Of a DNA stretch of 64,000 bases, positions 1,704 through 27,430 are shown piece by piece. This DNA comes from Branchiostoma floridae (taxonomy: Eukaryota > Chordata > Leptocardii > Amphioxiformes > Branchiostomatidae), in contig NC_049983.1 of assembly GCF_000003815.2 (NCBI RefSeq), forward strand, positions 25,787,003 to 25,851,002, written 5' to 3'. Numbering within the stretch: position 1 is the stretch's first letter; each line of letters starts with the position of its first letter. The notes below the pieces were generated by a model. The model saw nothing but the letters and a program-made list of their open reading frames with translations, was not told where the DNA came from and searched no databases. A program made the position numbers and the translations under genes.

Positions 1704-1802
1704 GACAAGCACACAGCACTGGACCGGGCTGCTGGCTGGGGCCACACTGGCACTTGTGAGGTTCTGATTTCCTCTGGTGCTGAGCTAAACCCCCCAAATA
1801 AG
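1704..1802 (+). CDS. Copy 1 exon: ankyrin repeat
   Basis: A 99-nt, phase 0-0 exon encoding one 33-residue ankyrin repeat (TALDRAAGWGHTGTCEVLI core). The acceptor follows ctgtacag and the donor is AAG|gtagat. It corresponds to copy 2 exon 15786-15884. Confidence 0.85.
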
Positions 1803-4800: not shown

Positions 4801-7800
4801 GTCATGTGATGTCACAGGTCCACTGGTGGTTGTGTTTCATCAAGGCCTGCAACCCGGACCGGAAGCCTGATGTCATCTTGGTGGCCAGTCATGCGGACAA
4901 GGTGAAACCTGACAGAGGTGAGGATAGACGTAAAGAACGGAAGAACATGTAGTTGTTTATGCAGCCATCTTGAAGATTAAAGAAAAATGTATAATAAATA
5001 TAGCATTTTCTTCCCATCCAGGACAAAATCTAGCAGCCCGTTTGCTTAAGGGGATGAAAGAAGAGTTCAAAGACCACCTCCGTATCGCAGATGAAGTGAT
5101 CCTGATGGACTGTAGGAAGACTCGGACACCAGAGATGGAAGTACTCAAGAGTCTGCTGCTCGAGATGAGAGAGGCCTTGCTGCCAGTGAGTATATTTTTC
5201 AAGATTCAAAGGACCAACATGGTTCCACATATATACATACACAATATATGCCTCATGGGTCAGTATGCACATTTTCTTGTTCAGTGACTTCAAGACGTTA
5301 GTCTTCCCAAAAGGCATTTTCGTCCATGTACTTTAAGTGTTAAGTGACTGATTGCTTTGAAATATAAACTCTAAGGAAAAACAATGATTTGAAAAGACCT
5401 ACGTGTATGCGTTTTTCAACATATTATGTGCGAAGACGAAAGTTATTACCAGGTACCAATTTGTTGTAATTCACAATTTTTCAGAACCAACGAGACATGC
5501 CAGTGCTGTGTGCGAAGATCATGGAGCTCCTACCAGAGTGGGGTAAGAAGTGGACCACCCCCAAATTCCCCGTGATGATGTGGCCTGACTATGTCAGGGA
5601 GGTCAAAGGAATCAACGAGCTTGTGACTGAAGACTTCCTCGAGAAATCCACACAATACTTGCACCATCTGGCAGAGGTATGATATCAAGGCCTCACCTGT
5701 GAATAAAACTTATCATGGTCCATAATATTCATCACGATGGCTCTCACAACAGAACTAACAGGAGTGCCATCGTAGTCTGTTCACCAGGACTAACATGCTT
5801 TCTCTCACTATTGCATAGGATCCTAGTAAACTAACTTGGGTGGCTAGAATGGAACAACACTGCATTACTTTTTCCATGAAAACTGATGGTAACTTTTAAG
5901 ATATCGTGTGTGTAATAAGATTAGTTGTGGAGTAGATTAATGCCATGCAGTATGACAATCTGGAACAAAGTCTAATTTACAATCAGGCAGTTCACTTTTC
6001 TAACACCTTGGTCACCTGTTTTAAATCCAGCTTCTGTTCATCACCCCGGCCACTTCTGATGGTATCCTTGTCCTGAAGCCCAACTGGCTTGGTACAAAGA
6101 TCTTCGGCCCAGTCATGGCACCAGACAACTTCCCCCTTCCCCGCATATTAAGGAAGCGTCGGACTCAGGACTACATCCACAGGTCAGAAATCGAGACAGT
6201 GTTCCAAGACATTACTGATGACGTGGATCTCCTGATCACCCTACTGGAAGAGTTCCAGCTCTGCCACTCCTATGACGGACAGACCTTCATCTTCCCAGGG
6301 CTGCTGACACAAACCATGCCTCCTGACAAGTGGCAACTCACACATGAGCTAAAGGTGGTCTACTTTGGGAAGCAAGTCCAGTGTGCCGACTCAACCGACA
6401 TGTTCTCCTCCGGGTTCTTCCCCCGAGTGCAGACCCGCCTGATGAGGGAGCTGGAGAATCCCCCGCAGCTGTGGAGAGATGGCGCCAAGTGTGCCGACAG
6501 GGATGTGGAAGGTCTGATCAAACTCTCTCCGGACGGCCGTGCTGTCAACATCTGTGTGCGGAGTGCACAGGGTGACAAGGGTCAGTGTAGCAAGATGCTG
6601 CAGCAGCTGGAGAACATCATTGCTGATGTGCTCTATGAGTGCAGCCCTGGTACTGTCACAGTAGAGAATGTGCTCAGTGCTCGTGCACTTAAGGATCACA
6701 TGGAGGAATTCTATTCCTACAGCAAGGAGGAGATCAGCAAGGCAAGAGCAGAGGGTGGTACAATACATCATCACGACCTCGGGTTCACAGAACAGGTCAG
6801 TGACCTACTGTGTGAGGAGACCCCGCTCACCAGGTACCGCCCAGAGCTGGTCCAGGCCTTGCAGGATGTGGAGCCAATCCTGAAGCACCTGCAGGTACTC
6901 AACATCCTGACGGCTGACGAACGCGACATCATCAGGGCTAAGAGCACGCCCCAGGATCGCGCACGAGCGCTGCTGGACACCATGGAGACAAAGAAGGAAG
7001 ATGCACTTCAGGTGTTCACAGCTTATGTTGGCCCAAAAATCTTAGACAGTGTGTTTCCCAACCTGTGCATACACTGCTTGGAATGCAAGCCGTGTAAGTA
7101 CAAGTCTTATGATTCATTTTTACAGCAGACTGAAAATAGTCAATAGTGAAATCGTTCTACTGGTCCGAAAACAATGATGATTCCTGCATCTATTTTTTCA
7201 TGTTTTGACCAAATTTGTAATGGTATTGGCAGAAGTAAATGTCAGTAGGGGAATGTTACAGGGTTAGCCTTGTCTATACCGGTAGTTACAGTGATTCTGT
7301 CTTCTCCATGCAGGCCCCATCCCGCTGGCCTGTGGATGTGACTACTTGCTGTGTGCTGCCTGCATGAAGAGTCAGACCCAGTCGTTCCGCTGCCCCAAGC
7401 ACCGCACTGAAACAACAGGCCTGGGTATGGCACTTATCATTTACACAAAATGTCACCAGCAGCATATATATTGCCATGAATGCCTAACCGAAACCTATTG
7501 TATTTAAAGTGTCTAAGTGTTATTGATATGTGTGTATGTGTTTTTATTATGTATAGTATATACATATATGGGTTATCATAGATACAAATGCATACATGTA
7601 GATAGATAGGTGTTTACTAACACTGATTAATAGAGCAGACAATTGAATATATTCCACATCAGCAATGTTCCTGCTCCAGGTTTTGTTTGTCGGAAGGATC
7701 CTGAAGACCTTTATGAAGGATTCTGGTTTGCTAAAAATTTTGGTATGGTCAGCATAGTACATTTTGGCTACTTTTTTACCAATAGCACATCAAGACTGAC

Positions 7801-8727
7801 AGTTTCCTTTGAACAGTTTCTGAATATCCACCTCATTATGCTGCAGGGTACAACACGTTCGTTATTGCTGTCGGCCAGGACGGGTTCGTGGAAGATGCCG
7901 AGACCTTCAAGGAGGTCGTCACCAATCCCAACATCTGTGGTGTGAGGTACTGGAAACTGCTGCTACTTCCAGACATCACAGATATTAAAGCCGCAGTTAG
8001 AAAAGTAGCAGCAAAGATCCAGCAGGTTCCAAAAGGCCAGCAGTCAGTCTTCATCTACTACCACAGCGGCCATGGAAAAGAGCAGGGCCTCTTCTTCTCA
8101 GAGTGGCAGGAAGAAGACAAATTATATGCTGTGTTGTCCAAGGAACTTCGAGACATCTTAAGTGGAAGTGGTGCCACTAAGTCACTCTTCATCTTGGATG
8201 CGTGCCATGCCTCATCCATTGAGGTCTACACCATAAAGGGCGTACAGCAAGAGAATAACTCGAGCAGTGAGCAAACAAAGATGGAAGATGGCGAGGAAGA
8301 ATTTCCAGGGGACGACAAGTTTTACTCGGAACCACCAAAGGCCATGTATGGTAATGACAAGATTCCAGAGGGTTCTATTCTATGGGCATCCAGCAGGCAA
8401 AACGAAAAGTCTGTGAAGAAGGAAAAGTACAGCGTGTTCACCAAGTACATCCTCAGTGGCCTACAGGGAGGCAACTGTGGGCAGGACAACTGCCCGAACT
8501 GCCAGTCATTCCAGCGGCAGGCCAGGGACACAGGGGCAGTCAGCCTGGACCTCCTTCACGACTACGTGTGTGACCACATGATGCACGATCAGACGTCACT
8601 GCAGAGCCAGACACCTTCATTAGTGGGTCAGAAGGGGAAAAGATACTGGATAGCGTACACACAAGACCAAGCCGGGGGGACGCACGTTGAGGAGGTTGAT
8701 GCAGCTGGTGCAGGCCCTGATCGATGA
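1704..8727 (+). CDS. Ankyrin-Roc-COR-CARD-RING-like-metacaspase protein, copy 1 (5' end outside window)
   Basis: Exons: 1704-1802, 2915-3007, 3409-3465, 3952-4095, 4281-4514, 4818-4917, 5022-5185, 5485-5676, 6031-7093, 7314-7424, 7847-8727. Together they give 3,138 nt, 1,045 aa plus stop, with every junction in phase and no internal stop. Visible domains in order: ankyrin repeats; Roc GTPase with P-loop GNETNGKS, DFAGQ (G3) and SHADK (G4-like); COR with the hydrophobic LLFITP..NWLG core; a CARD-like helical segment at 6838-7027; a Cys-rich RING-like finger split by an intron; and a C14 protease with His in SGHG (8071-8073) and Cys in LDAC (8203-8205). Known for the families: Roc-COR modules bind GTP and dimerise, CARDs make homotypic contacts, C14 proteases cleave after basic or acidic residues. 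Inferred: a cytosolic innate-immune or cell-death regulator carrying its own protease. First exons (four more ankyrin-type exons in copy 2) must lie upstream of position 1. An ordered exon-by-exon paralogue lies at 12331-24755. Confidence 0.88.
1904..2404 (-). mobile_element. tRNA-derived SINE in an ankyrin intron
   Basis: On the - strand a tRNA-like head near 2340-2402 has a box A-like TGGCACGATCGG and a box B-like GGTTCAAATCC. A long body follows, containing the ttgtgccc..aaaggcactt block that recurs near 62575. The 9-bp direct repeat ACTTTTACT at 1895-1903 and 2405-2413 is a good target-site duplication. Confidence 0.75.
2915..3007 (+). CDS. Copy 1 exon: short (31-residue) ankyrin repeat
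   Basis: A 93-nt phase 0-0 exon with core ATPLHWAAKYGRTGTCELLL. It begins two codons later than its 99-nt neighbours: the acceptor AG lies in what would be the usual GAC-CAG start (here GAA-CAG), so those two codons are now intronic. The same shift is present in copy 2 (16464-16556). Confidence 0.85.
3409..3465 (+). CDS. Copy 1 exon: terminal half ankyrin repeat
   Basis: A 57-nt phase 0-0 exon encoding 19 residues beginning RGRTPLNCA, the first half of an ankyrin unit closing the repeat stack. The acceptor is ttctacag and the donor AAG|gtaagt. Copy 2 equivalent is 16916-16972. Confidence 0.8.
3952..4095 (+). CDS. Copy 1 exon: Roc GTPase P-loop
   Basis: A 144-nt exon with a charged helix (EAERKAEQEK) leading into strand VNRFKVFLGG and P-loop GNETNGKST (Walker A, GxxxxGKS/T). 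The reading frame demands that the exon end at AAG|gcaggt, a GC donor, because the next exon begins in phase 0 with GAC. Confidence 0.85.
4281..4514 (+). CDS. Copy 1 exon: Roc switch regions
   Basis: Encodes 78 residues with an acidic loop (SSDEE), the PTPGVDIE switch-I-like motif, WDFAGQAEY (G3, DxxGQ) and the following strand TVFIVLYNI. Donor is CAG|gtaacc. Confidence 0.9.
4818..4917 (+). CDS. Copy 1 exon: Roc G4 region
   Basis: A 100-nt exon (phase 0 to 1) encoding VHWWLCFIKACNP and the strand PDVILVASHADKV. SHADK fills the place of the NKxD guanine-specificity motif, as in Roc domains that use a THxD form. Confidence 0.88.
5022..5185 (+). CDS. Copy 1 exon: C-terminal Roc / Roc-COR linker
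   Basis: A 164-nt exon (phase 1 to 0) encoding RLLKGMKEEFKDHLRI, then VILMDCRKTRTPEM, a late Roc strand with a conserved Cys, and a Leu-rich helix. The copy 2 counterpart is 18722-18885. Confidence 0.88.
5485..5676 (+). CDS. Copy 1 exon: start of COR domain
   Basis: Encodes 64 residues with KIMELLPEWGKKW and PVMMWPDYVREV, typical of the N-terminal part of COR where helices pack on Roc. Acceptor tttttcag, donor GAG|gtatga. Confidence 0.85.
6031..7093 (+). CDS. Copy 1 exon: main COR body, linker, CARD-like fold and first zinc ligands
   Basis: A long 1,063-nt exon (phase 0 to 1). It opens with LLFITP and LVLKPNWLGTKIFGP (COR), continues through FQLCHSYDGQTFIFPGLL and FFPRVQTRLMRELE. From 6838 to 7027 it encodes a six-helix-like CARD pattern (VEPILKHLQ, NILTADERDII, RARALLDTM, ALQVF). 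It ends with IHCLECKPC, the first Cys pairs of a RING-like finger. The last frame codon is completed by the next exon. Confidence 0.88.
7314..7424 (+). CDS. Copy 1 exon: RING-like Cys-rich finger
   Basis: A 111-nt exon (phase 1-1) encoding PIPLACGCDYLLCAACM then FRCPKHR. With the preceding HCLEC it gives C-x2-C...C-x-C...C-x2-C...C-x2-H, resembling RING or B-box zinc fingers with irregular spacing. An E3 role is possible but not shown. Confidence 0.8.
7847..8727 (+). CDS. Copy 1 exon: C14 metacaspase/caspase-type protease, C-terminus
   Basis: An 881-nt terminal exon. NTFVIAVGQDGF opens the caspase fold; FIYYHSGHGKE carries the catalytic His (8071-8073); LFILDACHASS carries the catalytic Cys (8203-8205). 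GSILWASS and KYSVFTKYIL match later p20/p10-like strands, followed by a CGQDNCPNC cluster. The chain ends AGAGPDR-TGA at 8725-8727. The exon is continuous here, whereas copy 2 has an intron after GVR. Confidence 0.9.
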
Positions 8728-8899
8728 TGCACCTTAAGCCGCTCCTGGACCACCTGCAGACAGAGGTCCTCAGCATGGCGGAGTGTGACATCATCATGTC
8801 CAAGGTGTCTTAACACTCCACAATTGCACACTGCCGGCAATGGGACCAAAGGGAGATGATGCACGTCAGGTGTTTAAGGCTCAGGAAACAATGTTGTGA
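8724..8899 (+). pseudogene. Out-of-frame CARD-like remnant after the stop of copy 1
   Basis: An ATG at 8724-8726 overlaps the TGA stop (ATGA). The frame reads LKPLLDHLQTEVLSMAECDI, which aligns with the internal CARD, but stops at 8811-8813. A further match (PAMGPKGDDARQVFKA) resumes in another frame up to about 8899. The intact version lies at 24752-24937. Probably untranslated relic of a second CARD. Confidence 0.6.
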
Positions 8900-10189: not shown

Positions 10190-10195
10190 AATAAA
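10190..10195 (+). promoter_or_regulatory. Candidate polyadenylation signal of copy 1
   Basis: AATAAA conserved at the corresponding place of unit 2 (26472-26477). It lies 1.46 kb after the stop codon next to a repeat, so it may be fortuitous. Confidence 0.3.
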
Positions 10196-12330: not shown

Positions 12331-12441
12331 ATGGACCTGGACACGTTCTACATGGCCGTGCAGTTTGGTGACGTTCCGACCGTAAAGAGGGGGCTGGAGG
12401 CTGGGGTGGACGTCAATGCCAAGAGAGACTGGGGAGGCTTG
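12331..12441 (+). CDS. Copy 2 exon 1: start and first ankyrin unit
   Basis: The ATG at 12331 follows a pyrimidine-rich acceptor (ccacagcag) and a short leader. It encodes 37 residues, MDLDTFYMAVQFGD then VKRGLEAGVDVNAK, an N-terminal capping ankyrin unit. Donor TTG|gtaagg, phase 0. Confidence 0.85.
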
Positions 12442-15293
12442 GTAAGGGGCAGAAGTGAAAGCACAAGTCCTGCTACATTTGTGATTGACAACAGCAACAA
12501 TCTTTAATAGAATAAGTTTATTTTTGCCGTTTTTTATCCGCACATTCTTTTGCTGTTTTGCATTCTATTTTGGACAGAAACAGCTAAAATCTATGTCAAC
12601 TCTATGTACACAATTTGTAAGATGTAATTAAATAGTCAGATTTTGAGCAAGACCTGGACACACCTATAGATGCCCATTTGAAGAAATTTAACATTTATAC
12701 AGCAGAAATAATTTCCCTTCCCAAGATAAGAATGAAGGTTGTCCGCTGTCACCGCGTCCTGAAAGTGCGACTAACGTGGAGGTGGAAAGTTATGAAAGAT
12801 GATCTATTTGAAAAGGATTGTCTATTGGTTGATTTAATTACACTTTACTTTTACACTGTACAGTCAATAATGCTGACAATAGTCTCTGTACGGTGGTGTA
12901 CTAGTAATGACCAGTTCTTGCCCAACTCTTGCTGTCCCCAGCCTGACCAGACATCCCTGCATGTGGCCTGCGAGTATGGGCAGACTGAGGTTGTAGAGCT
13001 GCTGATCCAACATGGGTCTGATGTGGCGGCGAGGGCGTGGGTAAGTATTAATAACCCTACTCTGATGTCTCCTGTCAATGAATTCCCAACAAGTATGCTG
13101 CAAAACTGTTCAAATTGAAAGTACAATTCAGAACTATTTTGCATCATCAACTTGTAGTACTTAGTTGGGACTGCAAGGACCCATTAGTGTACATGTATGT
13201 ACTCTCACCTCTCAAATAAACGTACCGGTACGTTTATTTTTTTCCGCCTCAAAATCCACTCGGTACGTCCTTATTTTAGACGGTACGTTTATTTTTTTTT
13301 TCAAATTGGGGCTTTCTTTACTAACCAGGGACCCCAAAAATATTGAAAGTTTGGTATTTTCTGCCCATATTTCCGCGGTATTTTGCTTAAAATTCACTAT
13401 TTTTCGGACGAGGCAGCGCGGATTTCCCTGCCGCTAGCGGTATGACCCAAACATCCTAACTAGGGATGCGTACCGGTACGCCGGATCGGTGCTGGATTTG
13501 CAAAAACTTTTCGGTTCATGTCCAAAAATAAGTGATTCGGTACTGCACTCACATATATCCTTTTTGTTTTAGACCATATATAACCTTCCAAAAATCTTGA
13601 AATTTGCGCTGAACAAAGACGAAAACATTGCCAAACATCAAGGTCCATAGGCCGAGCTCAAACACATGCTACACACACAGTCACTCAGATCCGTAAATTC
13701 TCGATCAAAACACAGAAATTAACCACCAACCAAACAAACTAAAAAGTTACCAATACTTTTCCACTATTTTTCACCCGTATTCAACTTGTTTTAATGTTCC
13801 AGCAACGAAAAAATCCTTCCAAAATAAAGCACAGCGTTCAATCGGCTCGAAAACATCCGCCATGTTGGATTTATCAACTCACGCCTAATCTCGCGGTAAT
13901 GCGCGAGAGAATGAATATTTTCTGCAGTACCGTCATCTTTTAATAGGGGGCAGTGTCTATGACCTCCTTGGTTTCTGCAACATTGAAAATAGCACAAGTG
14001 GTGAATAAAATAAGGTATTCTACTAAGTTGGAATGTTTCTTCAAAATGTTATTTTGTAACAATGATTATAAAATAAAGTTCTTTTTTTTATTTCTTCAAT
14101 TTTTATTTTCATTTATGTTTTACTTTTATTATAATCTTTGTTGATGTTGTGACACTCAGATAAAAGAAAATATGTGCAATAACATAGGAATTATTCTGTT
14201 CATTATTTATACAATTAACTGATATGGTACTCAGGCATAAATGAATAAAAAGAGCCTACCTGCTTATGACTGAAGTAGCATGGACACAGTTTACATGTCA
14301 ATTTGGTATTTTTCCGGGGGGTACTTTTATTCCAGGGGGTACTTTTATTGAATTTTGAAGATTTGTCCGGGGGGTACTTTTATTCCAGGGGGTACTTCTA
14401 TTTGAGAGGTGAGAGTAATACTTCAACTTGCTTTGCTTTCTTTTAAAGTGACTGCTATATGGTAACAGTGAATGGAATAGTGCAGCTTTTGGTGTTAAAT
14501 TTCAATTTGCTGTCATTTAGGTAAGAACTTTCAATTGTCTTTTGCCTATGTAGTTGTGGATTATGCTGTACCTTTCTCCCTGTACAGATCCACTCTGAAC
14601 CCCTACATGATGCTACTGCCAATGTTACTCTGTTCGTTTCATTACCCAATTTTTTTATATATCATGTCAATGTTGTTTCATATACCCATTAATGACCCAC
14701 CATTACTGACACCTTTCTGTACAGCACCAGTCCACTCCTCTGCATCTTGCTGCTTATGAGGACCACACCAAGACTTGTGAGGTCCTGATTCGTGCTAAGG
14801 CGGATGTGAACGCCAAAAATGAGGTAATGTAATTACATGTTTCGCATGGACTCACCAAAAGAACAGAAAAAGAACACACCAGCAAAAACAATATGTTGTC
14901 TCTATCGGGAACACATAAAAACTGACTTTTGCTATGTCCCATAAAGATATACACATTTAAAAAGTTTTTGTTGAATGCAGAAAGACGACCTCTGAAACAC
15001 ACCAAATCGTTTACTCCAAGTTCTGTTTTGTTTTCTTTGTTGTTACCCAAATTGTTTACATGTCCATGCAATTATAATGACCCTGACCTCCCCTATGTCC
15101 AGACCCAGTGGACACCCCTGCATCGGGCTGCTTACTGTAACCACACCAGGACTTGTAAAGTTCTGATTGATGCTGGCGCAGAAGTTAATGCTAGAAATCA
15201 AGTAATACATGTGTTTCGTATAGACTCTTGAATGACTGGATGTGAAATTAATTAGTGTTATGCACATTCATTGACTTGCACTAGTGCGTTTCT

Positions 15294-15327
<34 letters not shown>

Positions 15328-18300
15328 TCAGTCCCATTCCATTTTTCTGATCCATTTTTCTAAGCACTGTTCTACAACTTTGGTCGAGACACAAAAACAG
15401 AACAAATTCTGTTTACTAGTGTAATTACTGTTAGACATGTCTCTATTCATGCCATGATTTCTGCCATGTATCATAGAAAACACATTGAATATGAAGAAAT
15501 CAGAGGGCCTTTATAATTATTAAGTGTTAAATACTACCTTTGTCTAGATGTTGGTTTTGTGTAGCATGTCTAATTTCTTTGATTCTGTGTGCTATGGCAG
15601 CCATAGACGGATTGCTTAATGAAAATTGGTCTTTACAGAAATGGTTAGATTTTGGGGTTTTAAGCTTTGCAGTTCAGTGCAACGCTAGATTTGCCTACAT
15701 AACTAATCATTTATGTATGTTATGCTGTTAAAATGACCCCTCGATGAAACAAACAAAACTGACCCTGGCCGTCCTCCCTGTACAGGACCAGCACACACCC
15801 CTGGATCGGGCAGCTGGCTGGGGCCACACCGAGACTTGTGAGCTTCTGATTCGTGAAGGTGCAGAACTGATGGCCCCAAATGTGGTAATACACATGTATA
15901 TGTGTAACACGTGTGCCAAAACAGGGCTCGAAATACTTTTTTATGCATACCTGCACTGGTGCAGGTAACATTGAAAATTACCTGCACCAGACAAATTTTA
16001 CCTGCACCACTATGAATTTAGGAAGTATGGATCATACTAAAATTGTTCAGGAACAATTGCTTTTTTTTCTGTCATACTTAATAGGTGGTAACACCCAATG
16101 TAGCTAATAACAGTTCATATACACCTACATCATAGGACATGTATGTATAAAGCCCAGTGCATGGACCAGTGCAGGTTAGGTGCAGGTAGACACCAAAAAT
16201 ACCTGCACAGCTCCAATTTTACCTGCACTAACATGCATATGCAGGTGGTATTTTGAGCCCTGCAAAAGAATCTATTTTGTTAATAACTAGAGTATATGCT
16301 TATGCAAGCAAACAATGACCTCTGTCATGCACAACTTGCTCTTTATTGTAACTCTTAGTTTTGTTTTGTTTTGCTGTATTCTTACCCAAATCTTTCATAT
16401 ATCAATAATTATTTCATTTTAATGCCTGCCACTTCTGACCCTGATCTCTCTGCACGTGACCAGGCCACGCCCCTGCACTGGGCTGCCAAATACAACCAGA
16501 CCAGGACCTGTGAGCTTCTGATTGAGAAGGGTGCTGACGTGACAGCCAAAGATAAGGTCATACCTGCTTGTTTCACATTTGTTTCTTAAGACCACATTGA
16601 TGATGAACGCAAAAAGATAAACTTGATCACCTTCGCAAGACTTTGGTAGCGTTTGTATGTGTGTACATATGTTTGTGTGTATGGATGGACAGCATAACTC
16701 TGGTCTGGTTTAATAGGATACAAGATTAAAACAAACTGTTCTTAGTAAGGTGAAGGCGAAAACTGACTCTTCATTTAACATGCAAAATAGAAGACAATAC
16801 AATTTCTTTTGTGACTTTTATTTCTTTGTGCATTGTTGTTGTTATTGCCCAGCTTCAAGTAATTAGGTACGTAACAGTTTCTGATGCAACATGTCTCTCA
16901 TGTATCCCTCTACAGAGTGGGCGGACTCCGATAGATATTGCAAATGGTCAGGATACTCGGCGTTTCCTAAAGGTACGTGCTGCAATTGTTTTTTTGTGCT
17001 ATACTTTTCTACCACACTTTAAATTTTCCAGGCATGTAAGCTAAAATGTTGTGATCACTTAAGTCTTGTAGCAAAAATTGATATTCTTGGTAAACCAGTT
17101 CAGGGCTTCTTGGCTACTTTACACATGCCATGGTTGGTGACATTTGGTCCCAGCTTGCACTCAAGGAGAATATGGCCCATAAGTATGGTTAAGATTACCA
17201 GACACTTAAAGTTATATGAGTCTATGTCTACGTCTCAATATTCAAATACCTGTCCTCCCAGGAAGTGGAGAGGAAGGAGAAACAAGAAAAGTTCTACCAC
17301 GAGTTACTGCAGCAGTCTGGCGGGGTGAGGGTGGACAGGTTTAAGGTGTTCCTTGGAGGGAATGGGACAAATGGGAAGTCTACTCTGAAGAAAAGTCTTA
17401 TTAGGAAGGCAAGTAACCTTAATCCCCAGTTACACATAGCCAAAGTTTGCAGTAGGTTGGGAGCAGTCTGACCAGTTTTAGATTGTAGTGAAATTTGACT
17501 ACCGAACACACTCTGACCACTACTGACTTACTCCCATCCACCAGCCAACCCATTCCAGACTTCCCGTCCTGAGCCATGTTTTGAAAATTTCAAAACATCT
17601 GAAAATGATTATCTAATTTCAAAGTCGCTGACCACTTTTAGGATGTTAATGCTTTGTTTGTTAGTATGTATTCATTTATTAACTCATTACTTTAGCAAAA
17701 GTTTTGAATTATAAATTTTTAAAACCAACTGTGATAAATGTTTTTGTCACACCCAGGACCCGTTAACCCAAGCACAAAGTGTATCCTCTTCTGAGAAGGA
17801 ACCCCACGACCCCACCCCAGGTGTAGATATTGGAACGTTCCATGTACCAGGGGTGGGGGAGGTCAGCGTGTGGGACTTCGCTGGGCAGGCGGAGTACGCG
17901 GTGACCCACAGCATGTTCATGGATGCAGAGAACACCGTCTTCATTGTGCTGTACAACATCACGGACAAAGAGGAGACGCAAGAACAACAGGTAACCAGAG
18001 ATGCATTGGTTCTACAATTCTGCAGAGGTTTTACATTTCATTCAGTAATTTGGTCATTGCTGGGATGGCACTGGTCAAGTAGTGGTTATTTACAGTATGA
18101 ATAAATAAATGATCTAGCAACTCATGCTTGTTCATACTGATTACAACAAATGTGATTTTGCTACAGGTCCACTGGTGGCTGTGCTTCATCAAATCCTGCA
18201 ACCCGAACCGGCAGCCTGACGTCATCCTGGTGGCCAGCCATCGCGACAAGGTGGCATCTGCCAGAGGTAAGGATGGCTGTAACTGCCAGGAGGAATGTGT

Positions 18301-21300
18301 ACATGGGGCAAACATGCATGTACCATGGCATGGTTGAACAAGTCTGTCCATTAGCCCGATTGTCCCAGGCAAGTGAAATTTCCAATCGGGCAAGTGCATG
18401 TCCTACATACCTTGTCCAATCAGGCATGTACATGTAAGATTGTTCCAAGAGAGAGGTTTTGACATATTTGTTGCTCAGTCATGGCACCAAGCATTGTTCA
18501 ACACAGTAAAACAGAGCCAATGATAAAATAATTTCTGAAAAACGTACTTAAATTTAGGGCAAGTGAAAAGTTAGTTCAGGCAAGTGAATTTCTTATGCAC
18601 TTGCCTGATAGAACAACTGAATTTTCGAAAACTTGTTAAACCCTGCACAGGCTTGTTTTAATAGCATCTGTAAGGTGAAACACAAATTTAGATATGAATC
18701 TATCATTTTCGTCTTAAACAGGACAGCGCCTAGCAGCCCGTTTGCTTGAGTCGGTGAAAGAAGAGTTCCAAGACCACCTCCGTATCGCAGATGAAGTGAT
18801 CCTGATGGACTGTAGGCAGACTCGGACACCTGAGATGGACCAGCTGAAACGTCGTCTGGTCAGGATAAAACAGGCCTTGCTGCAAGTAAGTACATTAAAT
18901 TCAATCAGTTTTATCAGGAGCTAATTAGGGACCTGACGTTATTTACTGGGGGGGGAGGGCTGGTGCAAAATAGGTCTGGTAAAAAATTTTTCAATGGCCC
19001 CCCCCACGCCCCCAAAAATTTTTTTATGGCCCTCCCCCCGCCCCAAAAAATTTTTCTATGGCCCCCCCCCCCCCAAATTTTTCCTTGCCTTTTCCATTAC
19101 ACACAGTCTGTCATTAAATAATATACACATGTAGCAATAACAATAGCGGTAGCGTTGTTTGAACGTGACGACGATCGGGGTGTCAAGACCCGCGCGTCAA
19201 CAAATTACGCACGTTGGAGTCCTGCTGGGGCATATGTTATCTCCCAAAGTTTTACAACAGCCGAGTTTTCATTTTGATGACATATATACAAACATGTAGC
19301 ACTTGATGTTGTTACACTCACGCTGCAACGGTTATAAGACTTACCTTGTCTGATATCACTTCTCCGATCTACGTGAAAAAAGTCTCTGGTAACGTTTAAT
19401 ACGCAAGATCACGAAACTGAGCGTTTCCGCCAGACCGACGGCTAGCTGTTAAAGGCCGTCCAGGGATCGGAGGGCCGAAGGCCCGACCGGTCTGGGGGGT
19501 TAGGGGCATGCTACCCGGGAAATTTTGATATTTTTGACCCTCTAAAACGAAATTTCCCGCATTCTGTGAGGCAAAAAAATGTGGATTTTATGCGTCCACA
19601 TCAACGAAGAGAAAAGCGGGAGGGGAGGGGCTGTAATACAAGGCGATCTTTTCCACTACACATGTACGAAATTTACACAAAAGAAAACAAATTAATGTTG
19701 TAGTTGGAAGAGACTTGGGTACATTTTAGCGATATCGTTACGAACACTGCTTCAAGACTCCTTCAATCTTTCCAAAACGGGAGTTATTTCGGCCAATTGC
19801 AACCTACAAACTTGCCAAAAAAATTTCGCGCCACCATGATTACGTCATATGCTGCAGAGAGCCCGCTGTCACGAAAGTAAACATCGTAATGTTTTATCCC
19901 GTTGCCGTCCGTGAACCATTCCGTATACAAAGAACAGATGCACGCAGGATTGATATTCATACCAATTTTAGTTTCTATAGTTTTCTTAAACTTCGTGTGA
20001 ACATGGAATCACACGAAAGAGGCGGCTGCAGAAAATTTCTGTCTCAGTATGGGGAGGGCGAACTATATCAACGTAATCCTTGGGGGTCCGGGGCATGCTC
20101 CCCCGGGAAAATTTGGAAATCTTGCATATCTGAAACGATCTTTCCTAAATTTTGATGGGCAAAATTTGCTGGCAGACTAAGCTAAGTTTAATAGCCTTTC
20201 TATTAGAACTTCACATGGTTTTGAGGGCGACGACGCCCCCAACGTATTTCCACGATTTCGAGTGCCGGGCATGGCACGAGCCGTCGCAAGGTAGGTCTGG
20301 AGAAATGTCATTCAAATGATGAAGTTTGGACCCTCTGAGACACGATTTTCTGCATTTTGAGGGATAAATTTCGCTGGTAGACTATGCTAAATGTAATGAC
20401 AATTTTCTGTCAGAGGAAGAGATTTTTGATGGCAACGAGTGCCGAAGTGTTGTGTGCGCCGGAGGCGCAAGCCGTCGCAAGGGACGTCCAGAGAAAAATT
20501 AAAATTTTGACCATCTGAAACTTCATTTCCTGCATTTCAGGGGCACATTTTGCTTGTATTTATCAAGGCCCCTTAAAGGCAATTTTTTTTCAATGGCCCC
20601 CCCCTCGGCTCAACAATTTTTTCAATGGCCCCCCCCTCGGCTCAAAAAATTTTTCAATGGCCCCCCCCCACCTATGCACCAGCCCTCCCCCCCGGTAAAT
20701 ATCGTCAGGTCCCTTACGAGGAGCCATGAGTGAAAGATTCAAAGGACTAACATGGGTTCACATATCTACATAGCATACAGAATGTATGCTTCATGGTTCA
20801 GTAGCTGTGCACATCTCTTTGAGTGACTTTGTCCAGGATTTCAATAGATGAAAGCATCTTACAAGACATTAGTCATTGCTGTAGCGCAAGCTCTATGTTT
20901 GTTCACATCACTACAGACACGTTAGATCGCAGATGCAGAAAGATATGCTATTCCTTCATTAACAGGCTGTATAACACCAATAATAGTAATATACAAGGTC
21001 TTCTGAAGTTAGATTGTCTGTTCAGACATTCTTTTTTTTTTAATGTGTATAAACTGTTGTGTGTATAGTTTGTGTTCTTATGTTTGTATGGCTTATTCTA
21101 TGGGTTGTATACCTGAAATAAAGAAATTCAATTAGTCTTCTTGAATAGAAGACACTTCTATCCTTGTACTTAAAGTACTTAAGGTATAAATTTGTTGTCA
21201 TCCAAACTCTCACAGAACCAACGAGACATGCCTAGGCTGTGTGCAGAGATCATGAAGTGTCTACCAGAGTGGGGTCAGAGGAAAACTGGGCCCAAGTGCC

Positions 21301-24300
21301 CCGTGATGATGTGGCCTGACTACGTCAAGGAGGTCAGAGGAATCAACAAGCATGTGACTGAAGACTTCCTTCAGAAATCTACAAGATACTTGCACCATCT
21401 GGCAGAGGTACGATGTCAAGTCTTCAACATTATAACTATGGCTACGTAATGTGAATAAACCTTACAATAGTCCACACAATTACTGACATTGCTACTGTAC
21501 TGCTACTGTAGCTAAATAACTTTGCATTATTGCACCAGCCGGATAATTGCACAAAATTCACTGGCAAATGCAAAATAGACTGTGCAATTAAGCAGCTTCT
21601 ACTGTACTAAAGAGTCGCTATACATCTTGACATCAAACATGAAAATGATTTGTGTCTGGATATGTAAAACTCATGTCTCCCTGCATTAGGCCATGTTCAC
21701 TCACAAGAACTTTTAAGATTTTGATACAGTGTAGTAAAATGTGCTGTGAACTTTTGAGTGCATGCATCAATGTCACGTAATAGAATTTAGGACAAAGTAA
21801 AATCAACTGCAGTTTACAATAAGGCACTGCACTTTTCAGACGCCTTCATTTCATTTCACCTTTTTGAAATCCAGGTTCTGTTCATCACGCCAACAACTTC
21901 TGACCCTGTCCTTATCCTGAAGCCCAACTGGCTTGGAACAAACGTCTTTGGCCCTATCATGGCACCGGACAAGTTCCCCATACCCCGTATACTCAGGAAA
22001 CGTAGGGACTACATCACCAGATCAGAAATCCAAGAAGTGTTCCAAGACGTTGCTGACGTGGATCTCCTGATCACCCTGCTGCTTGAGTTCCAGCTTTGCC
22101 ACACCTATAATGGGTTGGAGTTCATCTTCCCAGGGCTCCTGACACAAACCATGCCGTCTGACAAGTGGCAACCAACACAAGAGCCAAAGGTGGTCTACTT
22201 TGGGAAGCAACTCCAGTGTGCCGACTCAACTGACATGTTCTCCTCTGGGTTTTTCCCCCGGGTGCAGACCCGCCTGATGAGGGAGCTGGAGAATCACCCG
22301 CTGCTGTGGAGAGATGGCGCCAAGTGTGCGGACAGGGATGTGGAAGGTCTGATCAAACTCTCTCCGGACGGCCGTGCAGTCAACATCTGTGTCCGGAGTG
22401 CGCAGGGCGACAAGGTGCAGTGTGGCAAGATGCTGCAGCAGCTGGAGAACATCATCGCTGATGTGCTCTATGAGTGCAGCCCAGGAACAAACACAGTAGA
22501 GAATGTGCTCAGCGCTCGTGCCCTGAAGGAACACAGGGAGGAATTCTACTCCTACGGCAAGAAGGAGATTAGTGAAGCAACAGCAGAGGGCGGCACAATC
22601 CATCATCCCACCCTTGGGTTCACAGAACAGGTCAGCAACCTGCTGTGTATGGAGACCCCACTCACCAGGAACCGCCCAGAGCTGGTCCAGATCTTGCAGG
22701 ATGTGGAGCCAATCCTGAAGCACCTGCAGGCTCGTGACATCCTGACTGAGGAGGATTGTAGCGTCATCAGGGACCACAGCATGCCCCACGAACGTGCGTG
22801 TGCTCTGCTGGACAAGATGAAGACAAAGAATGATGATGCACGTTGGGTGTTCACGACTTTTCGCACAGTGTTCCCCAACCTATGCATGCACTGCTTGGAA
22901 TGCAAGCCATGTGAGTATCAGTCTAAATCATTCATTTTTCGTAGCAGACTGAAAAGACTAATAATGAAATCGTTCTATTGGTCCGAAAACAATGACTCCT
23001 GCACCTGTTTTATGTCATATTTGGACCAAATTTGTAATGGTATTGGCAGGAGTCAATGTCAGTAGGGGAATGTTACAGGGTTGGCCTCGTCCATATTTAC
23101 AGTGATTCTGTCTTCCCCATGCAGGCCCCATTCCCCTGGCTTGTGGATGTGCCTTCCTGTTGTGTGCTGCCTGCATGAAGAGTCAGACTAAAGGGTTCCA
23201 CTGCCCCAAGCACCACGTGATCACAACAGGGCTGGGTATGGCGCTGATCATTTATACAATATTACCAGCATATATGCGCCATAAATGCCTTACCCCAACC
23301 CCATTGTATCTAACATATCTCTCCCCCCCTCCTCTCTCTCTCTACATATATAACGGTATATATATAGGAGGTTACTAACAACAAAATTCCCTCCACGGCA
23401 TGAGAGTATGACTTGCGTGGCCACGAAGCACAATGATGTAAAACACGATCCCCGCACTGTAGTTGTACCTAGTTTGTTAGATAGATCCGGTAGAAGGGCT
23501 TATAGTTTGTTTTACATTTTGATAAGAACAGCATATGTATATTTGGGCTACTTTTCTATGAATAGAGATGATGACAGTTTTCTTTGTACAGATTTTCTTT
23601 GTTTCTGTTACTGACAATGATGAGTAACATCCATCCCATTATGCTGCAGGGTACAACACATTCGTTATTGCTGTTGGCCAGGACGGGCATGGGGAGGAAG
23701 ACTTCAGAGAGGATGCCATTGGCTTCACCGAGATCATCACTGATCCCAACATCTGTGGTGTGAGGTAAGTACAGAACTGTGCTTGGGAGAACCAACTATG
23801 AAAACATTGCATTTGCATGCATTGTGCAAATTCCATGAAAAAACTCCTTGCTGTGTGTGATAAACACACATTTAGATATCACTCTACTAACTATGCCTTG
23901 TAATAGTTGTGCCCTAAAGCTTAAATATCTGTCCACTTTTATTTTATCAGGAAAGACAACGTGAAGCTGCTGCTAGATGCAGAAATTGCTGATGTTGAAG
24001 CCGCAGTCACAGAAGTAGCAGCAAAGATTCAGCAGGTTCCAGAAGGCCAGGAGTCGTTCTTCATCTACTACCACAGTGGTCATGGAGATGAGCAGTGCCT
24101 CGGCTTCTGGTCCGAGCACATATTACAGGCAGTTTCTTCTGGAGATCTGGAAGAGATCTTTAGGGGAAGTGGCGCGACTAAGTCGCTCTTCATCTTAGAT
24201 GCGTGCCACTCCTCATCCAATCAGGTCTACACCATGAAGGGGGCACCACAAGAGAGCAGCTCTATCAATGGAGAAGAGGTGGATGAGGGCAATCCACAAG

Positions 24301-24755
24301 ACCCAGAACCACCACTCGCCAAGTTTGACAAAGACGTGCTTCCAGAAGGTTCCATGCTCTGGGCGTCCAGCAGAATCACACAGAAGTCCTGGAAGTGGGA
24401 GGAACAGTACAGCGTGTTCACCAAGTACATCATCAGCGGCCTGCAGGGTGGCAACTGTGGACGTGACAGCTGCTCATACTGCCTGACCTTCCAGCGCCGG
24501 GCCAGGGATGCTGGGGCAGTGAGCCTGGACATCCTAAACGACTACGTGTACGATCACGTGAAGAACAAGCTGCGGCAGACACCGTCACTGCAAGGCCAGA
24601 CACCGTCACTGCTGGGTCAGCATGAGAAAACCTACTGGATGGCGTACACACAGGACCAAGCAAGGGCGAAGGCAGAAGATGCACAACAGACATTCCAGGT
24701 ACAGGACAGAGAGGACCAGACATCATCTTCAGCTGGTGCAGGTCCTGATCGATGA
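12331..24755 (+). CDS. Ankyrin-Roc-COR-CARD-RING-like-metacaspase protein, copy 2 (complete)
   Basis: Sixteen coding exons: 12331-12441, 12942-13040, 14725-14823, 15103-15201, 15786-15884, 16464-16556, 16916-16972, 17262-17408, 17757-17990, 18167-18266, 18722-18885, 21216-21407, 21875-22910, 23125-23235, 23650-23764, 23951-24755. They sum to 3,561 nt (1,186 aa plus stop) with consistent phases and no stop. The start ATG follows an acceptor and 11 nt of leader and opens an ankyrin unit (MDLDTFYMAVQFGD). Domains: about seven ankyrin units (residues 1-219), Roc (P-loop GNGTNGKS, DFAGQ, SHRDK), COR, CARD-like fold (22673-22862), RING-like finger, C14 protease with His in SGHG (24081-24083) and Cys in LDAC (24204-24206). 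Both catalytic residues are kept, so activity is plausible. Family knowledge supports GTP-switched oligomerisation and proteolysis; role in immunity or cell death is inference. Differences from copy 1: an extra intron in the protease, a shorter CARD-RING linker, and mobile elements in several introns. Confidence 0.92.
12942..13040 (+). CDS. Copy 2 exon 2: ankyrin repeat
   Basis: A 99-nt phase 0-0 exon, one repeat: PDQTSLHVACEYGQTEVVEL then LIQHGSDVAARAW. Donor TGG|gtaagt. Confidence 0.9.
13201..14416. mobile_element. 1.2-kb terminal-inverted-repeat element, noncoding
   Basis: ACTCTCACCTCTCAAATA at 13201-13218 is inverted at 14399-14416. Further gtac-rich motifs (cgtaccggtacg, ggggggtacttttatt) are repeated at both ends. 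No transposase frame is present, so it is a non-autonomous element or a composite of nested ones; a clear target duplication is not seen. Confidence 0.6.
14725..14823 (+). CDS. Copy 2 exon 3: ankyrin repeat
   Basis: 99 nt, phase 0-0; HQSTPLHLAAYEDHTKTCEV then LIRAKADVNAKNE. Donor GAG|gtaatg. Confidence 0.9.
15103..15201 (+). CDS. Copy 2 exon 4: ankyrin repeat
   Basis: 99 nt, phase 0-0; TQWTPLHRAAYCNHTRTCKV then LIDAGAEVNARNQ. Donor CAA|gtaata. Confidence 0.9.
15298..15323. repeat. (CA)n microsatellite
   Basis: An uninterrupted CA run in the intron between ankyrin exons 4 and 5. Confidence 0.9.
15786..15884 (+). CDS. Copy 2 exon 5: ankyrin repeat
   Basis: 99 nt, phase 0-0; DQHTPLDRAAGWGHTETCEL then LIREGAELMAPNV. 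This is the direct counterpart of copy 1 exon 1704-1802, including the unusual AAGWGHT turn. Confidence 0.9.
15922..16262. mobile_element. hAT-like MITE in an ankyrin intron
   Basis: Terminal repeats CAGGGCTCGAAATAC and GTATTTTGAGCCCTG enclose several copies of the palindromic tacctgcac/gtgcaggta motif. The CAGGG terminus is typical of hAT elements and matches the element at 33360-33693. The flanking 8-mers do not match well. Absent from the matching copy 1 intron. Confidence 0.65.
16464..16556 (+). CDS. Copy 2 exon 6: short ankyrin repeat
   Basis: 93 nt, phase 0-0; ATPLHWAAKYNQTRTCELLI then EKGADVTAKDK. The usual two leading codons (GAC CAG) are still visible but now lie before the acceptor AG. 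Confidence 0.88.
16916..16972 (+). CDS. Copy 2 exon 7: terminal half ankyrin repeat
   Basis: 57 nt, 19 residues SGRTPIDIANGQDTRRFLK; closes the ankyrin stack before the Roc helix. Donor AAG|gtacgt. Confidence 0.85.
17262..17408 (+). CDS. Copy 2 exon 8: Roc P-loop
   Basis: 147 nt; charged helix EVERKEKQEK, strand DRFKVFLGG and P-loop GNGTNGKST. The donor is AAG|gcaagt, a textbook GC donor, required by the phase of the next exon. Confidence 0.9.
17757..17990 (+). CDS. Copy 2 exon 9: Roc switch regions
   Basis: 234 nt; DPTPGVDIG, VWDFAGQAEYAVTH, TVFIVLYNITDKEET. Same boundaries as copy 1 exon 4281-4514. Donor CAG|gtaacc. Confidence 0.92.
18167..18266 (+). CDS. Copy 2 exon 10: Roc G4 region
   Basis: 100 nt, phase 0 to 1; VHWWLCFIKSCNP and VILVASHRDKV. 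Donor AGAG|gtaagg. Confidence 0.9.
18345..18646. repeat. Degenerate interspersed repeat in intron 10
   Basis: The caggcaagtga / cacttgcctg motif recurs in both orientations. The matching copy 1 intron is only about 100 nt, so this is an insertion in unit 2. Confidence 0.45.
18722..18885 (+). CDS. Copy 2 exon 11: C-terminal Roc / linker
   Basis: 164 nt, phase 1 to 0; RLLESVKEEFQDHLRI, EVILMDCRQTRTPEM, then a Leu/Arg-rich helix. Donor CAA|gtaagt. Confidence 0.9.
18928..20713. mobile_element. 1.8-kb non-autonomous TIR element with TTA target duplication
   Basis: Long inverted termini begin GGGACCTGACG and end CGTCAGGTCCC, extending inward through gggggggagggctggtgca. TTA flanks both ends (18925-18927, 20714-20716), as in PIF/Harbinger-type insertions. 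No transposase frame is present. The paralogous copy 1 intron (5186-5484) lacks it. Confidence 0.75.
20825..21135 (+). mobile_element. Truncated LINE 3' end (probable)
   Basis: A segment with a frame reading RRCRKICYSFINRLYN and an A/T-rich 3' end closing with acctgaaataaagaaattc, like a retrotransposed 3' end with polyadenylation signal. Absent from the copy 1 intron. Family not identified. Confidence 0.4.
21216..21407 (+). CDS. Copy 2 exon 12: start of COR
   Basis: 192 nt, phase 0-0; EIMKCLPEWGQRKTGPKCP, VMMWPDYVKEV. Same boundaries as copy 1 exon 5485-5676. Confidence 0.9.
21875..22910 (+). CDS. Copy 2 exon 13: COR body, CARD-like fold, first zinc ligands
   Basis: 1,036 nt, phase 0 to 1. 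COR core VLFITPTTSDPVLILKPNW; FQLCHTYNGLEFIFPGLL; RVQTRLMRELE. CARD-like segment 22673-22862 (VEPILKHLQ, DILTEEDCSVI, ACALLDKM). It ends MHCLECKPC. The CARD-to-zinc linker is six residues shorter than in copy 1. Confidence 0.92.
23125..23235 (+). CDS. Copy 2 exon 14: RING-like finger
   Basis: 111 nt, phase 1-1; PIPLACGCAFLLCAACM and FHCPKHH. Same ligand pattern as copy 1. Confidence 0.85.
23650..23764 (+). CDS. Copy 2 exon 15: start of protease domain
   Basis: 115 nt, phase 1 to 2; YNTFVIAVGQDGHGEEDF, ending NICGVR. Donor AG|gtaagt. The corresponding intron does not exist in copy 1. Confidence 0.88.
23951..24755 (+). CDS. Copy 2 exon 16: C14 protease and C-terminus
   Basis: 805 nt. FIYYHSGHGDEQ has the catalytic His (24081-24083) and LFILDACHSSS the catalytic Cys (24204-24206). 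GSMLWASS and QYSVFTKYIISG follow, then CGRDSCSYC. Ends SAGAGPDR-TGA at 24753-24755. Confidence 0.92.
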
Positions 24756-24937
24756 GGCGGGTGGAGCCGCTCCTGGACCAGCTGCATGCAATGGAGGTCC
24801 TTAGCATGGAGGAGTGTCATGTCATCAGGGCCAAAGGCGTCTTCACACCCCACAATTACGCACACGCATTGCTGGCAATGGGAGCAAAGGGAAATGATGC
24901 ATGTCAGGTGTTCAAGGCTGTGGAAATAATGCTATGA
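24752..24937 (+). CDS. Overlapping CARD-like ORF after the copy 2 stop
   Basis: A 61-residue ORF begins at an ATG that shares bases with the TGA stop (ATGA). It reads VEPLLDQLHAMEVLSMEECH and ALLAMGAKGNDACQVFKAVE, clearly similar to the internal CARD at 22673-22862. Immediately upstream, QLVQVLIDEA (expected first CARD helix) is readable in a third frame. It may be a frame-broken relic, a reinitiation product or the result of unseen splicing. Confidence 0.5.
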   Translation: MRRVEPLLDQLHAMEVLSMEECHVIRAKGVFTPHNYAHALLAMGAKGNDACQVFKAVEIML

Positions 24938-27430
24938 ACTTGATCTAGAGCTTTTGCTGCAAAGCTGATTGCTGCAAAGCTTATTCTGCTGCAATTTAGT
25001 TAAGTGCAACGCTTCATTTTCCAATTTCAGAGTCACTGATGAAATCAAAGAATGGATCATACATGTACATATATTCAAAGAGTTTTAAAGCCAGGGCAGG
25101 ACATGTTTGAAACAAAGCTACCCGTTTGCAGAGACAGACATGGCCTTACTTTTACGATGTTGTATGTATGCTGTTGGTTATGATATGTTTTAGTGCTTCA
25201 ATTCATGTTTAGTCTCTGAATTTGAAAATTTTGCTTTGGTATCTTGCTTTTTCGGCATCGCACATTAGATTTAAAGTCCTTTGGAGGATGTCATTCATAC
25301 AATTACGTGCTGTGGCCTAATGTAGAAAAACATAATGCTGCCTTATTCAGTTGTACCATTCGACAAATAGAGAATCAACCATTAGCAATTACAGCTTGTT
25401 AATGGGAACTACATGTATGATCCAAAATCATGTTCAGTTGCTAACTGCTATTTGGTGCATGGCATCGTTTGTGCTTTAATCAATTTCATTATTCAAGTGG
25501 TATCTATACTGGCAAATCATGTGTGTAAAAGCAAATATGCTGTAATGCAACATAAAAGCTATGTGGAAATGTTTCATCTCTGAAAGTATGTGGAATGTAC
25601 TTTTTCAACTGTATAATGTGACGTATAAATTGAGATTTGTCAGGCATTGCTCTCGCTGACCAAATCATGAAATCTGGAGAATTGAAATGTGATTACTAGA
25701 ATTGGAAAAGTAAAGAAATGTGTTAAATATCACCGTACAAGAGGAGGTTTGTAATACTTTAGATAAAGCACAAAGAGACTGGTGAAGAAAGTGTGAAGTA
25801 TATAGTTTGCCATCATCTGGGTACAAGATTCAAAATGGTGCCAAAGATTCAAAATGATGCCAAAGATTCATATTTACTGCCAAATAAGTTGATGTGACTG
25901 ACTACCGCGCAGACAACAAACACACATCTGGTGATAACAGGTGAAAGTTGGTAGTCTAGTGCATTTGATTGTCCTTGCTAGTGCCATACCGTTGTGGTCA
26001 TTGCGTCACATGGTGACAGATGGATAAGATTCATAATGACAATGAAGTTTGTTGCTTAAATGCATAAATATGTATAATGATAGTTATGTTGCAAAACAGT
26101 TGTATAAGATACAACTTACATGTATAGTAATGGGGGTAATTCTGGTGTAGAAGGAAACAGTTAAATGGATATAAAGCATATGACATTCCATTACAAAATG
26201 TATATTTGAAAAATGTGACGCTTTATCCAGATTTTTGGAATGGTGGAACTGGTGTTAGGGCGCAGTCACATGTAGGTCATTCGATTGTCATACGATTTCG
26301 ATAATAGTATTTTTAAGCAGGCAGTGACAGAGCCAACCAGCAGAACATTGTAGCAGAAAATTGTAGGACTCATGCATGGCTGTCCTAAAAATGCCCTACA
26401 GTTTGTAAGTTAGCGATCGTAGCGATCGTAGGACGATCGCGCCAACTATGTGACCGCGCCTTTAGAAGTGCAATAAAAGAAAAAGCGTTTGCCGCACTTT
26501 ACGGTTTCCTGTGATTTTTTTCTATGCCCAAGTAAAAAGACAAAAGATGCAGACACGTAAGAGCATGTTTCACTTTCTTACTTTATTCAAAATGTTACAA
26601 AAAACTGAATCTCATATAAATATTACAAATCATCATCAGGAACTTAACACAATTCGAAGATACTAAAAAAACAAACATAACAACTGGACTGCATACATTG
26701 CATCTGTCCATAGCTTCAGCAGATCTCAATATGGAAGTTATCAATAACCATAATCATCATAATTATAGTCATAACGTACAGCACCTAAAATATTGCAGAT
26801 ATATAAATAATCACTTGCAAGTTCCGAGACCAGATACATGTTTAATTATATATATATATATAGAAAGCACCATGTTGTTGTTGTTGTTCCTGAGGAATTC
26901 CAATGTTCCACTTTGCATGTTGCTACATTTTCAAGTTGTTACATTTTCAAGTTGTTACTTCTGTAACGAAAAGCTGCCTTGGATAAGGTTACATACTTGT
27001 AAATACCAAGGGCATAGTTGAAGATAACTGACCTAAACATTTATGAACTAACACGTAGCTTGGTGAGCTGTTAATACTTATTTAAAAGAATATTACTGAT
27101 TTCTACACAATATCATCAGCGATCTATAAAACTTACAAAAGTAAGTACAAGTTCAATGGCAACTTAACAATTTACAAAATGGGCAGCCAGATTTAAAAAA
27201 AGTGACTTCAACACATAAATTCTGTGCTTGTTACTAATTCCTTACTAACAATAACATAAAGGTAAAAATGTCTACAACATTTTAAACTTAAGGACAACAT
27301 AGTTCCCAAGTCAAAATAACAACCAGTCTATACCTGTTACAAAAGTGCCATATAATAATAAATCATATTATTACGTATGTACAATGAAGAAATTCCAGGG
27401 ACAACTGCATTCTTAAGTAACAGAAAGAAA
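24938..27430. other. 3' flank of copy 2, colinear with 8900-11110
   Basis: Long matching stretches with the copy 1 flank continue to a ccagggacaactgcattctt block (11073 and 27395). No gene seen. Holds the shared inverted-repeat element and AATAAA at 26472-26477. Confidence 0.7.
26256..26462. repeat. Unit-2 copy of the shared inverted-repeat element
   Basis: Arms gggcgcagtcacatg and ctatgtgaccgcgcc; the orthologous insertion of unit 1 is at 9972-10181. Confidence 0.55.

Follow-up and report, generated by a model that had tools for sequence, protein, structure and literature searches.

Can one animal gene join a repeat array, a GTPase switch, a death-fold adaptor, a zinc finger and a protease in a single chain? 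The question is raised by positions 12331-24755 of a 64-kb stretch of Branchiostoma floridae DNA (contig NC_049983.1; the whole stretch is called the window). A sequence-only reading had proposed that sixteen in-phase exons at this place encode ankyrin repeats, Roc, COR, CARD, a RING-like finger and a metacaspase in one protein. In this study we name the gene at 12331-24755 gene B, and a second copy upstream of it, at 1704-8727, copy A. The architecture described for gene B is confirmed as a prediction from the sequence. Furthermore, we consider it fairly likely that each copy is a single gene coding for an intracellular sensor of the Roco type, equipped with its own protease.

Gene B and its tandem copy

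The gene B model was rebuilt from the raw sequence, the exons being joined and translated. Sixteen exons lead from a start codon at 12331 to a stop codon ending at 24755 and form an open frame of 1,186 codons. All 15 introns end in AG; 14 of them start with GT, and the one after exon 8 starts with GC. From N to C terminus, the encoded protein starts with ankyrin repeats, continues with Roc, COR and CARD, and ends in a RING-like cysteine cluster and a protease of the C14 family that has its His and Cys. Ank, Roc, CARD and Peptidase_C14 all score above the curated Pfam cut-offs, and COR, for which COR-B scores below, is accepted through its bacterial relatives. The features of the two copies are as follows.

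12331-16972, plus strand: gene B exons 1-7, N-terminal ankyrin array (splice model; Pfam Ank 3e-43, five stretches)
17262-18885, plus strand: gene B exons 8-11, Roc GTPase (Pfam Roc 1e-10; LRRK2 Roc match 1.4e-7)
21216-22615, plus strand: gene B COR region, in exon 12 and the 5' part of exon 13 (COR-B 1.3e-5, below cut-off; bacterial Roc-COR coverage)
22661-22852, plus strand: gene B CARD in exon 13 (Pfam 2.3e-8; nearest PDB relatives BIRC2 chains)
22883-23216, plus strand: gene B RING-like cysteine cluster, split by the intron 22911-23124 (cysteine spacing, no library match)
23650-24755, plus strand: gene B exons 15-16, metacaspase-like C14 protease (Peptidase_C14 5.3e-8, domain alone 4.3e-9), with the catalytic His at 24081-24083, the Cys at 24204-24206 and the stop at 24753-24755
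24749-24937, plus strand: relic second CARD behind the gene B stop (Pfam CARD 8.6e-6, 26.1 bits, shifted frame)
24756-26490, plus strand: probable 3' untranslated region of gene B; it ends behind the AATAAA poly(A) signal at 26472, which aligns with an AATAAA at 10190 downstream of copy A
1704-8727, plus strand: copy A, exons 5-15, Ank-Roc-COR-CARD-RING-like-protease (tblastn, 74% identical to gene B)

Copy A, which the sequence-only reading had missed, was found by tblastn of the gene B model against the window. From exon 5 on, it too forms one open spliced frame. It keeps exons 5-14 plus a fused exon 15+16; its exons 1-4 were not found within the window, and may precede it or be lost. The two copies share the domain order, the splice phases, the GC donor after exon 8, the stop, and the HSGHG and DACH sites, and in all 11 exon comparisons the lengths either agree or are offset by a multiple of 3. 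Over 1,025 aligned codons, the pair is 74% identical, with dN 0.164, dS 0.426 and dN/dS 0.38 (95% interval 0.32-0.47), a codon comparison that shows purifying selection on the pair overall. Domain order, phases, stop, frame-preserving indels and this ratio, being common to both copies, are therefore a strong argument for one coding unit. The claims of sixteen in-phase exons in one protein, of the domain order, which copy A repeats from exon 5 on, and of both catalytic residues, found in either copy, are thus upheld.

Taken by part, dN/dS is 0.36 in Ank, 0.30 in Roc, 0.27 in COR, 0.23 in the RING-like cluster and 0.29 in the p10-like part of the protease, and rises to 0.64 in the linker and 0.88 in the C-terminal tail, both with intervals that reach 1. 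Some observations weigh against the proposed reading. Selection looks weaker in the CARD (0.62; 95% interval 0.34-1.17) and in the p20 part of the protease (0.62; 0.37-1.04), where constraint is unproven by this pair alone, and the p20 dN of 0.257 is the highest of the recognised domains.

The copies differ in some introns. The intron at 23765-23950, between exons 15 and 16 and inside the gene B protease, is absent from copy A, which indicates intron loss or gain between the tandem copies. Intron 11 is 2,330 nt long in gene B versus 299 nt in copy A; the gene B intron contains, at 18927-20714, 28-nt inverted repeats that are 93% complementary and 1,732 nt apart, an insert that looks like a non-autonomous DNA transposon.

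A sceptic might see in the exons a chance or mis-assembled string of adjacent domain genes, given the repeats in the introns, the transposon-like insert of intron 11 and a gap of N at another place in the window. This is largely refuted by copy A, in which order, phases and stop recur, and we regard it as hardly credible.

Both marks of the Roco family are present in gene B, namely a Roc domain and a COR region directly behind it. Roc of copy A also scores above the Pfam cut-off (4.3e-10), and the sequence holds GNGTNGKST, DFAGQ and ASHRD, which we take to be the P-loop, DxxG and THxD-like motifs. Among PDB matches the LRRK2 Roc is nearest, followed at 1e-5 by chain 3dpu, labelled 'Rab family protein' and presumably the Chlorobium Roco protein; the GTPase therefore looks animal rather than newly bacterial. 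The CARD, the ankyrin-Roc-COR part and the introns likewise identify gene B as an animal gene. The COR scores are less favourable: COR-B of gene B reaches 25.5 bits against a Pfam cut-off of 27, and copy A gives 26.0 bits against 35.3 for COR-A (9.6e-6) and 22 against 27 for COR-B. We accept COR in both copies because tblastn of the Roc-COR stretch matched eight bacterial plasmid records, four of which cover 95-100% of it (E 3e-8 to 5e-3), and the proteins of these four score strongly for COR-A and COR-B.

The CARD exceeds its Pfam cut-off of 23.9 bits in gene B (34.4) and copy A (52.2), and an exon 13 profile ranks BIRC2 (cIAP1) chains first in PDB (1.5e-5 and 1.3e-4). Behind the CARD lies a cysteine cluster spaced C-x2-C-x2-C-x2-C-x5-C-x-C-x4-C-x2-C-x9-C-x2-H, which we call RING-like from this spacing. 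As to the zinc finger claimed before, the Cys/His cluster is indeed conserved in both copies; a finger is, however, not recognised by Pfam, NCBIfam or PDB searches, none of which gave a significant match, and this counts against the assignment. The gap between the fourth and fifth ligands is longer than usual for a RING. Gene B resembles BIRC2, in which a CARD precedes a RING, by having a BIRC2-like CARD followed by the RING-like finger. It differs in that the Pfam scan of its protein found no BIR domain and in that the finger is not recognisable as a RING by library search.

Like gene B, copy A has a relic CARD behind its own stop, at 8728-8898. We rejected the stretch at 24749-24937 as a functional second CARD; it is out of frame and broken in both copies, and a search by eye for an in-phase splice found none. 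From these relics behind both stops, the ancestral gene probably carried a CARD on either side of the protease.

One transcription unit or two

Could the protease exons belong to a gene of their own? We weighed a two-gene reading against the paralogue, the poly(A) hexamers and the upstream reading of the exon 14 frame, and it is left unlikely. Intron 13 (22911-23124) divides the RING-like cluster between exons 13 and 14. Read upstream, the exon 14 frame meets a stop at 23103, within intron 13, and has no ATG from there to the exon. Moreover, neither AATAAA nor ATTAAA occurs from 21454 to 26472 in gene B. On balance, the sequence thus favours one predicted transcription unit for gene B over two genes.

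Two points are less comfortable for a single unit. One ATTAAA (7984) lies inside the copy A protease exon, and intron 13 (7094-7313 in copy A) is 0.88 identical between the copies, versus 0.47-0.69 for the nine other introns compared. Its inner stretch is even 0.91 identical, and the CARD exon next to it is less conserved at its end than the intron. Such odd conservation may point to regulation, to gene conversion or to an alternative product. The locus might accordingly make two products that overlap: a Roco form, either full or ending at the CARD, and a separate RING-like/protease form or a truncated one. Alternative splicing, retention of an intron or a promoter inside the gene could give rise to the latter; retaining intron 13 would stop gene B after 50 added residues. 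The tail so produced is, however, unconserved (50 residues in gene B, 16 in copy A), and a transcript begun in intron 13 would find its first in-frame ATG only within exon 14, amid the cysteine cluster. The identity of the intron may also be due to gene conversion, because part of exon 13 (22189-22508) is 0.91-0.97 identical as well. We hold such overlapping products to be unlikely and keep to a single unit.

Type of the protease

By its sequence, the protease is not an animal-type caspase, and it is metacaspase-like. The active-site surroundings read HSGHG...DACH (DACHS or DACHA in the two copies), not QACxG, the site described for caspases (PMC2575513). Caspases owe their specificity for Asp to Gln161 and Arg164 of caspase-3, beside the catalytic Cys, while other characterised C14 enzymes prefer Arg/Lys (PMC5756287). 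At the matching positions both copies have Asp and His, so that neither the QACxG site nor the Gln161/Arg164 pocket of animal caspases (C14A) is found, and the description of the enzyme as an executioner protease finds no support. Cleavage after Arg/Lys is therefore predicted. The features of metacaspase-like proteases and orthocaspases are present, that is a p20 with a His (GHG) and Cys (D-x-C) dyad and an acidic residue before the Cys, and the protease can fairly be called a metacaspase by type.

Only one NCBIfam model, NF047832 (bacterial EACC1-associated caspase), matches the protease of both copies, at 2e-13 for gene B and 1.7e-12 for copy A. The scores of 50.4 and 47.3 bits place both outside the family, whose curated cut-off is 140; five bacterial relatives also score below it (89-137 bits). 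The PADLOC caspase model gives 7.2e-5 and 0.0013. The five bacterial relatives come from a tblastn search with the protease that returned 14 plasmid records with E values no higher than 10, the lowest being 1e-3, and they were aligned with both copies in seven rows. The five plasmid-borne caspase-family proteins align colinearly along most of their length at 22-26% identity. Eleven columns of the seven-row alignment are invariant, including GHG, D-x-C and a C-terminal Pro; four of the five bacterial proteins also have SGHG and D-x-C-H, and three have DP-x-x-C.

A profile of these seven rows, five of them bacterial, found 16 sequences in PDB, among them ten metacaspase sequences (6.9e-15 to 1.9e-7), the bacterial protein GSU0716 (2.6e-5) and, only at 0.94, caspase-1; no MALT1 chain was among the 16. 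The gene B protease alone found only weak legumain, asparaginyl-endopeptidase, vacuolar-processing-enzyme and GPI-transamidase matches (0.032 to 1.8), and both copies together, taken without the bacterial rows, found none. Because the copies alone reached no caspase or metacaspase in PDB, the metacaspase link depends on the bacterial rows, which tells against it. No protease relatives were confirmed in scans of viral contigs (7 stretches) and genome contigs (63 stretches), a scan with few short peptide patterns that says little on distant relatives.

The p10-like part of both copies contains a C-x4-C-x2-C stretch (24456-24482 in gene B), a possible metal site; none of the five bacterial relatives shows these cysteines as a set.

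Is the enzyme active at all? The relaxed p20 (dN/dS 0.62) would suit a pseudo-protease or scaffold, in which case the chain would act as a Roco receptor that presents its CARD and so recruits caspases encoded elsewhere. Also in favour of this, some 70% of the effector-position caspase domains in a class of bacterial conflict systems are reported to be catalytically inactive (PMC7159879). Both copies nevertheless keep the His and Cys in their HSGHG and DACH context, and the p10-like part has a dN/dS of 0.29. We find a pseudo-protease improbable.

Parallels, proposed working and other features of the window

Six of the eight plasmid records matched by the Roc-COR stretch were scanned for domains. 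One of the six Roco proteins ends in CHAT, a caspase-superfamily domain (L006, LRR-Roc-COR-CHAT), three end in the effector-associated domain EAD (one below cut-off; L008 and L009 are of this kind), and two show no listed domain behind COR. The earlier statement that a kinase or death domain is the usual end of Roc-COR proteins is only partly borne out, as bacterial AP-GTPase-COR proteins are reported to carry at least 24 kinds of C-terminal domain, caspase included (PMC8195603), and one of those scanned ends in CHAT. Gene B is like these bacterial AP-GTPase (LRR-Roc-COR) conflict proteins in uniting repeats, Roc-COR and a C-terminal caspase-superfamily domain or EAD in one chain (PMC8195603). 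Unlike them, it is an animal gene with ankyrin rather than leucine-rich repeats and with C14 in place of the CHAT of one example, and it adds a CARD and RING-like finger, neither reported for the six scanned. With the bacterial EACC1-type caspases it shares the NF047832 match and the colinear alignment with five proteins, and differs by its low scores (47-50 bits against 140), its fusion to an animal Roco protein and its extra C-x4-C-x2-C insert.

Among animal Roco proteins (DAPK1, LRRK1/2, placozoan ROCO), ankyrin repeats and Roc-COR are likewise found, and the Roc of gene B is nearest to LRRK2 in PDB; in Trichoplax, there are ROCO proteins with a CARD or with death domains (PMC4104024). The accessible parts of PMC6337361, PMC4104024 and PMC11378527 describe no fusion to a protease, and the Pfam scan of the gene B protein found no kinase domain. 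In amphioxus, where caspases and death domains are known to have expanded, at least 45 caspase genes (PMC3196919) and 'shortcut' hybrids of the TNFR-caspase and LRR-caspase kinds with QACXG sites have been reported (PMC2575513). These hybrids also join a receptor-type part directly to a caspase-fold protease, but theirs is a true caspase with QACXG, whereas gene B has DACH, metacaspase/bacterial-type features and an added GTPase switch. Type-2 paracaspases and metacaspase-like p20 proteases are reported in early-branching animals and cnidarians (PMC5978004, PMC5756287). They too are non-caspase C14 enzymes, with a basic P1 preference in characterised relatives (PMC5756287); in these reports they are described as a p20/paracaspase domain only, without Roc-COR or CARD. 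Because such proteases are already reported in these animals, transfer from bacteria is possible but not shown.

We found no description of this domain combination in the open-licence literature searched, which is not proof of absence; given the bacterial and amphioxus precedents, the combination counts as a variant and not as an unprecedented kind.

The ankyrin repeats of gene B mostly occupy one phase-0 exon each: exons 2-5 are 99 nt long (33 amino acids, one repeat) and exon 6 is 93 nt long, all in phase 0. In this they resemble brown-algal ROCO genes, which have one LRR per exon and for which exon shuffling is reported (PMC11378527), and by analogy shuffling of the ankyrin cassettes is a possibility. 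As to origin, a conceivable though rather unlikely history is that a bacterial-type caspase (orthocaspase) was joined to a Roco protein in some animal lineage. The lineage would thereby have rebuilt the bacterial repeat-GTPase-protease defence format, with a CARD and zinc finger added that plug into animal death signalling and with reshufflable one-repeat-per-exon ankyrin cassettes.

How could such a protein work? We infer every step of the sensor-switch-protease logic beyond the domain assignments. A ligand or client would bind to the ankyrin array. Whether Roc-COR is a monomer or a dimer could then depend on its nucleotide state, as reported for bacterial Roco proteins (PMC6337361), and dimerisation would bring CARDs and proteases together. 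The RING-like finger might either ubiquitinate or hold the CARD-protease junction, and proximity would activate the protease, which may cut itself or a partner behind Arg/Lys. Immunity or cell-death signalling would be the likely setting, through limited proteolysis and not Asp-directed caspase execution. It had been proposed that direct joining of the protease would bypass adaptor recruitment; this is not obvious, because the protein keeps its own CARD adaptor.

If made and active, the protein would be a self-contained animal sensor, switch and protease with an Arg/Lys-cutting enzyme of bacterial/metacaspase type, and an animal counterpart of bacterial Roc-COR-protease defence proteins. It would also offer a simple system for asking whether Roc-COR dimerisation switches on a protease, which bears on how LRRK2 and DAPK1 transmit their GTP state.

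In the whole window, no Rfam match reached the gathering threshold. Outside the two copies, two reverse-transcriptase (LINE-type) reading frames on the minus strand are 99.9% identical over 1,944 bases, and a gap of 100 N adjoins a minisatellite.

37164-39110, minus strand: LINE-type reverse-transcriptase frame (RVT_1 match 4.1e-37)
39165-39264: 100-base N gap
39299-39633: 27-bp minisatellite, about 12 copies
45621-47774, minus strand: second LINE-type reverse-transcriptase frame

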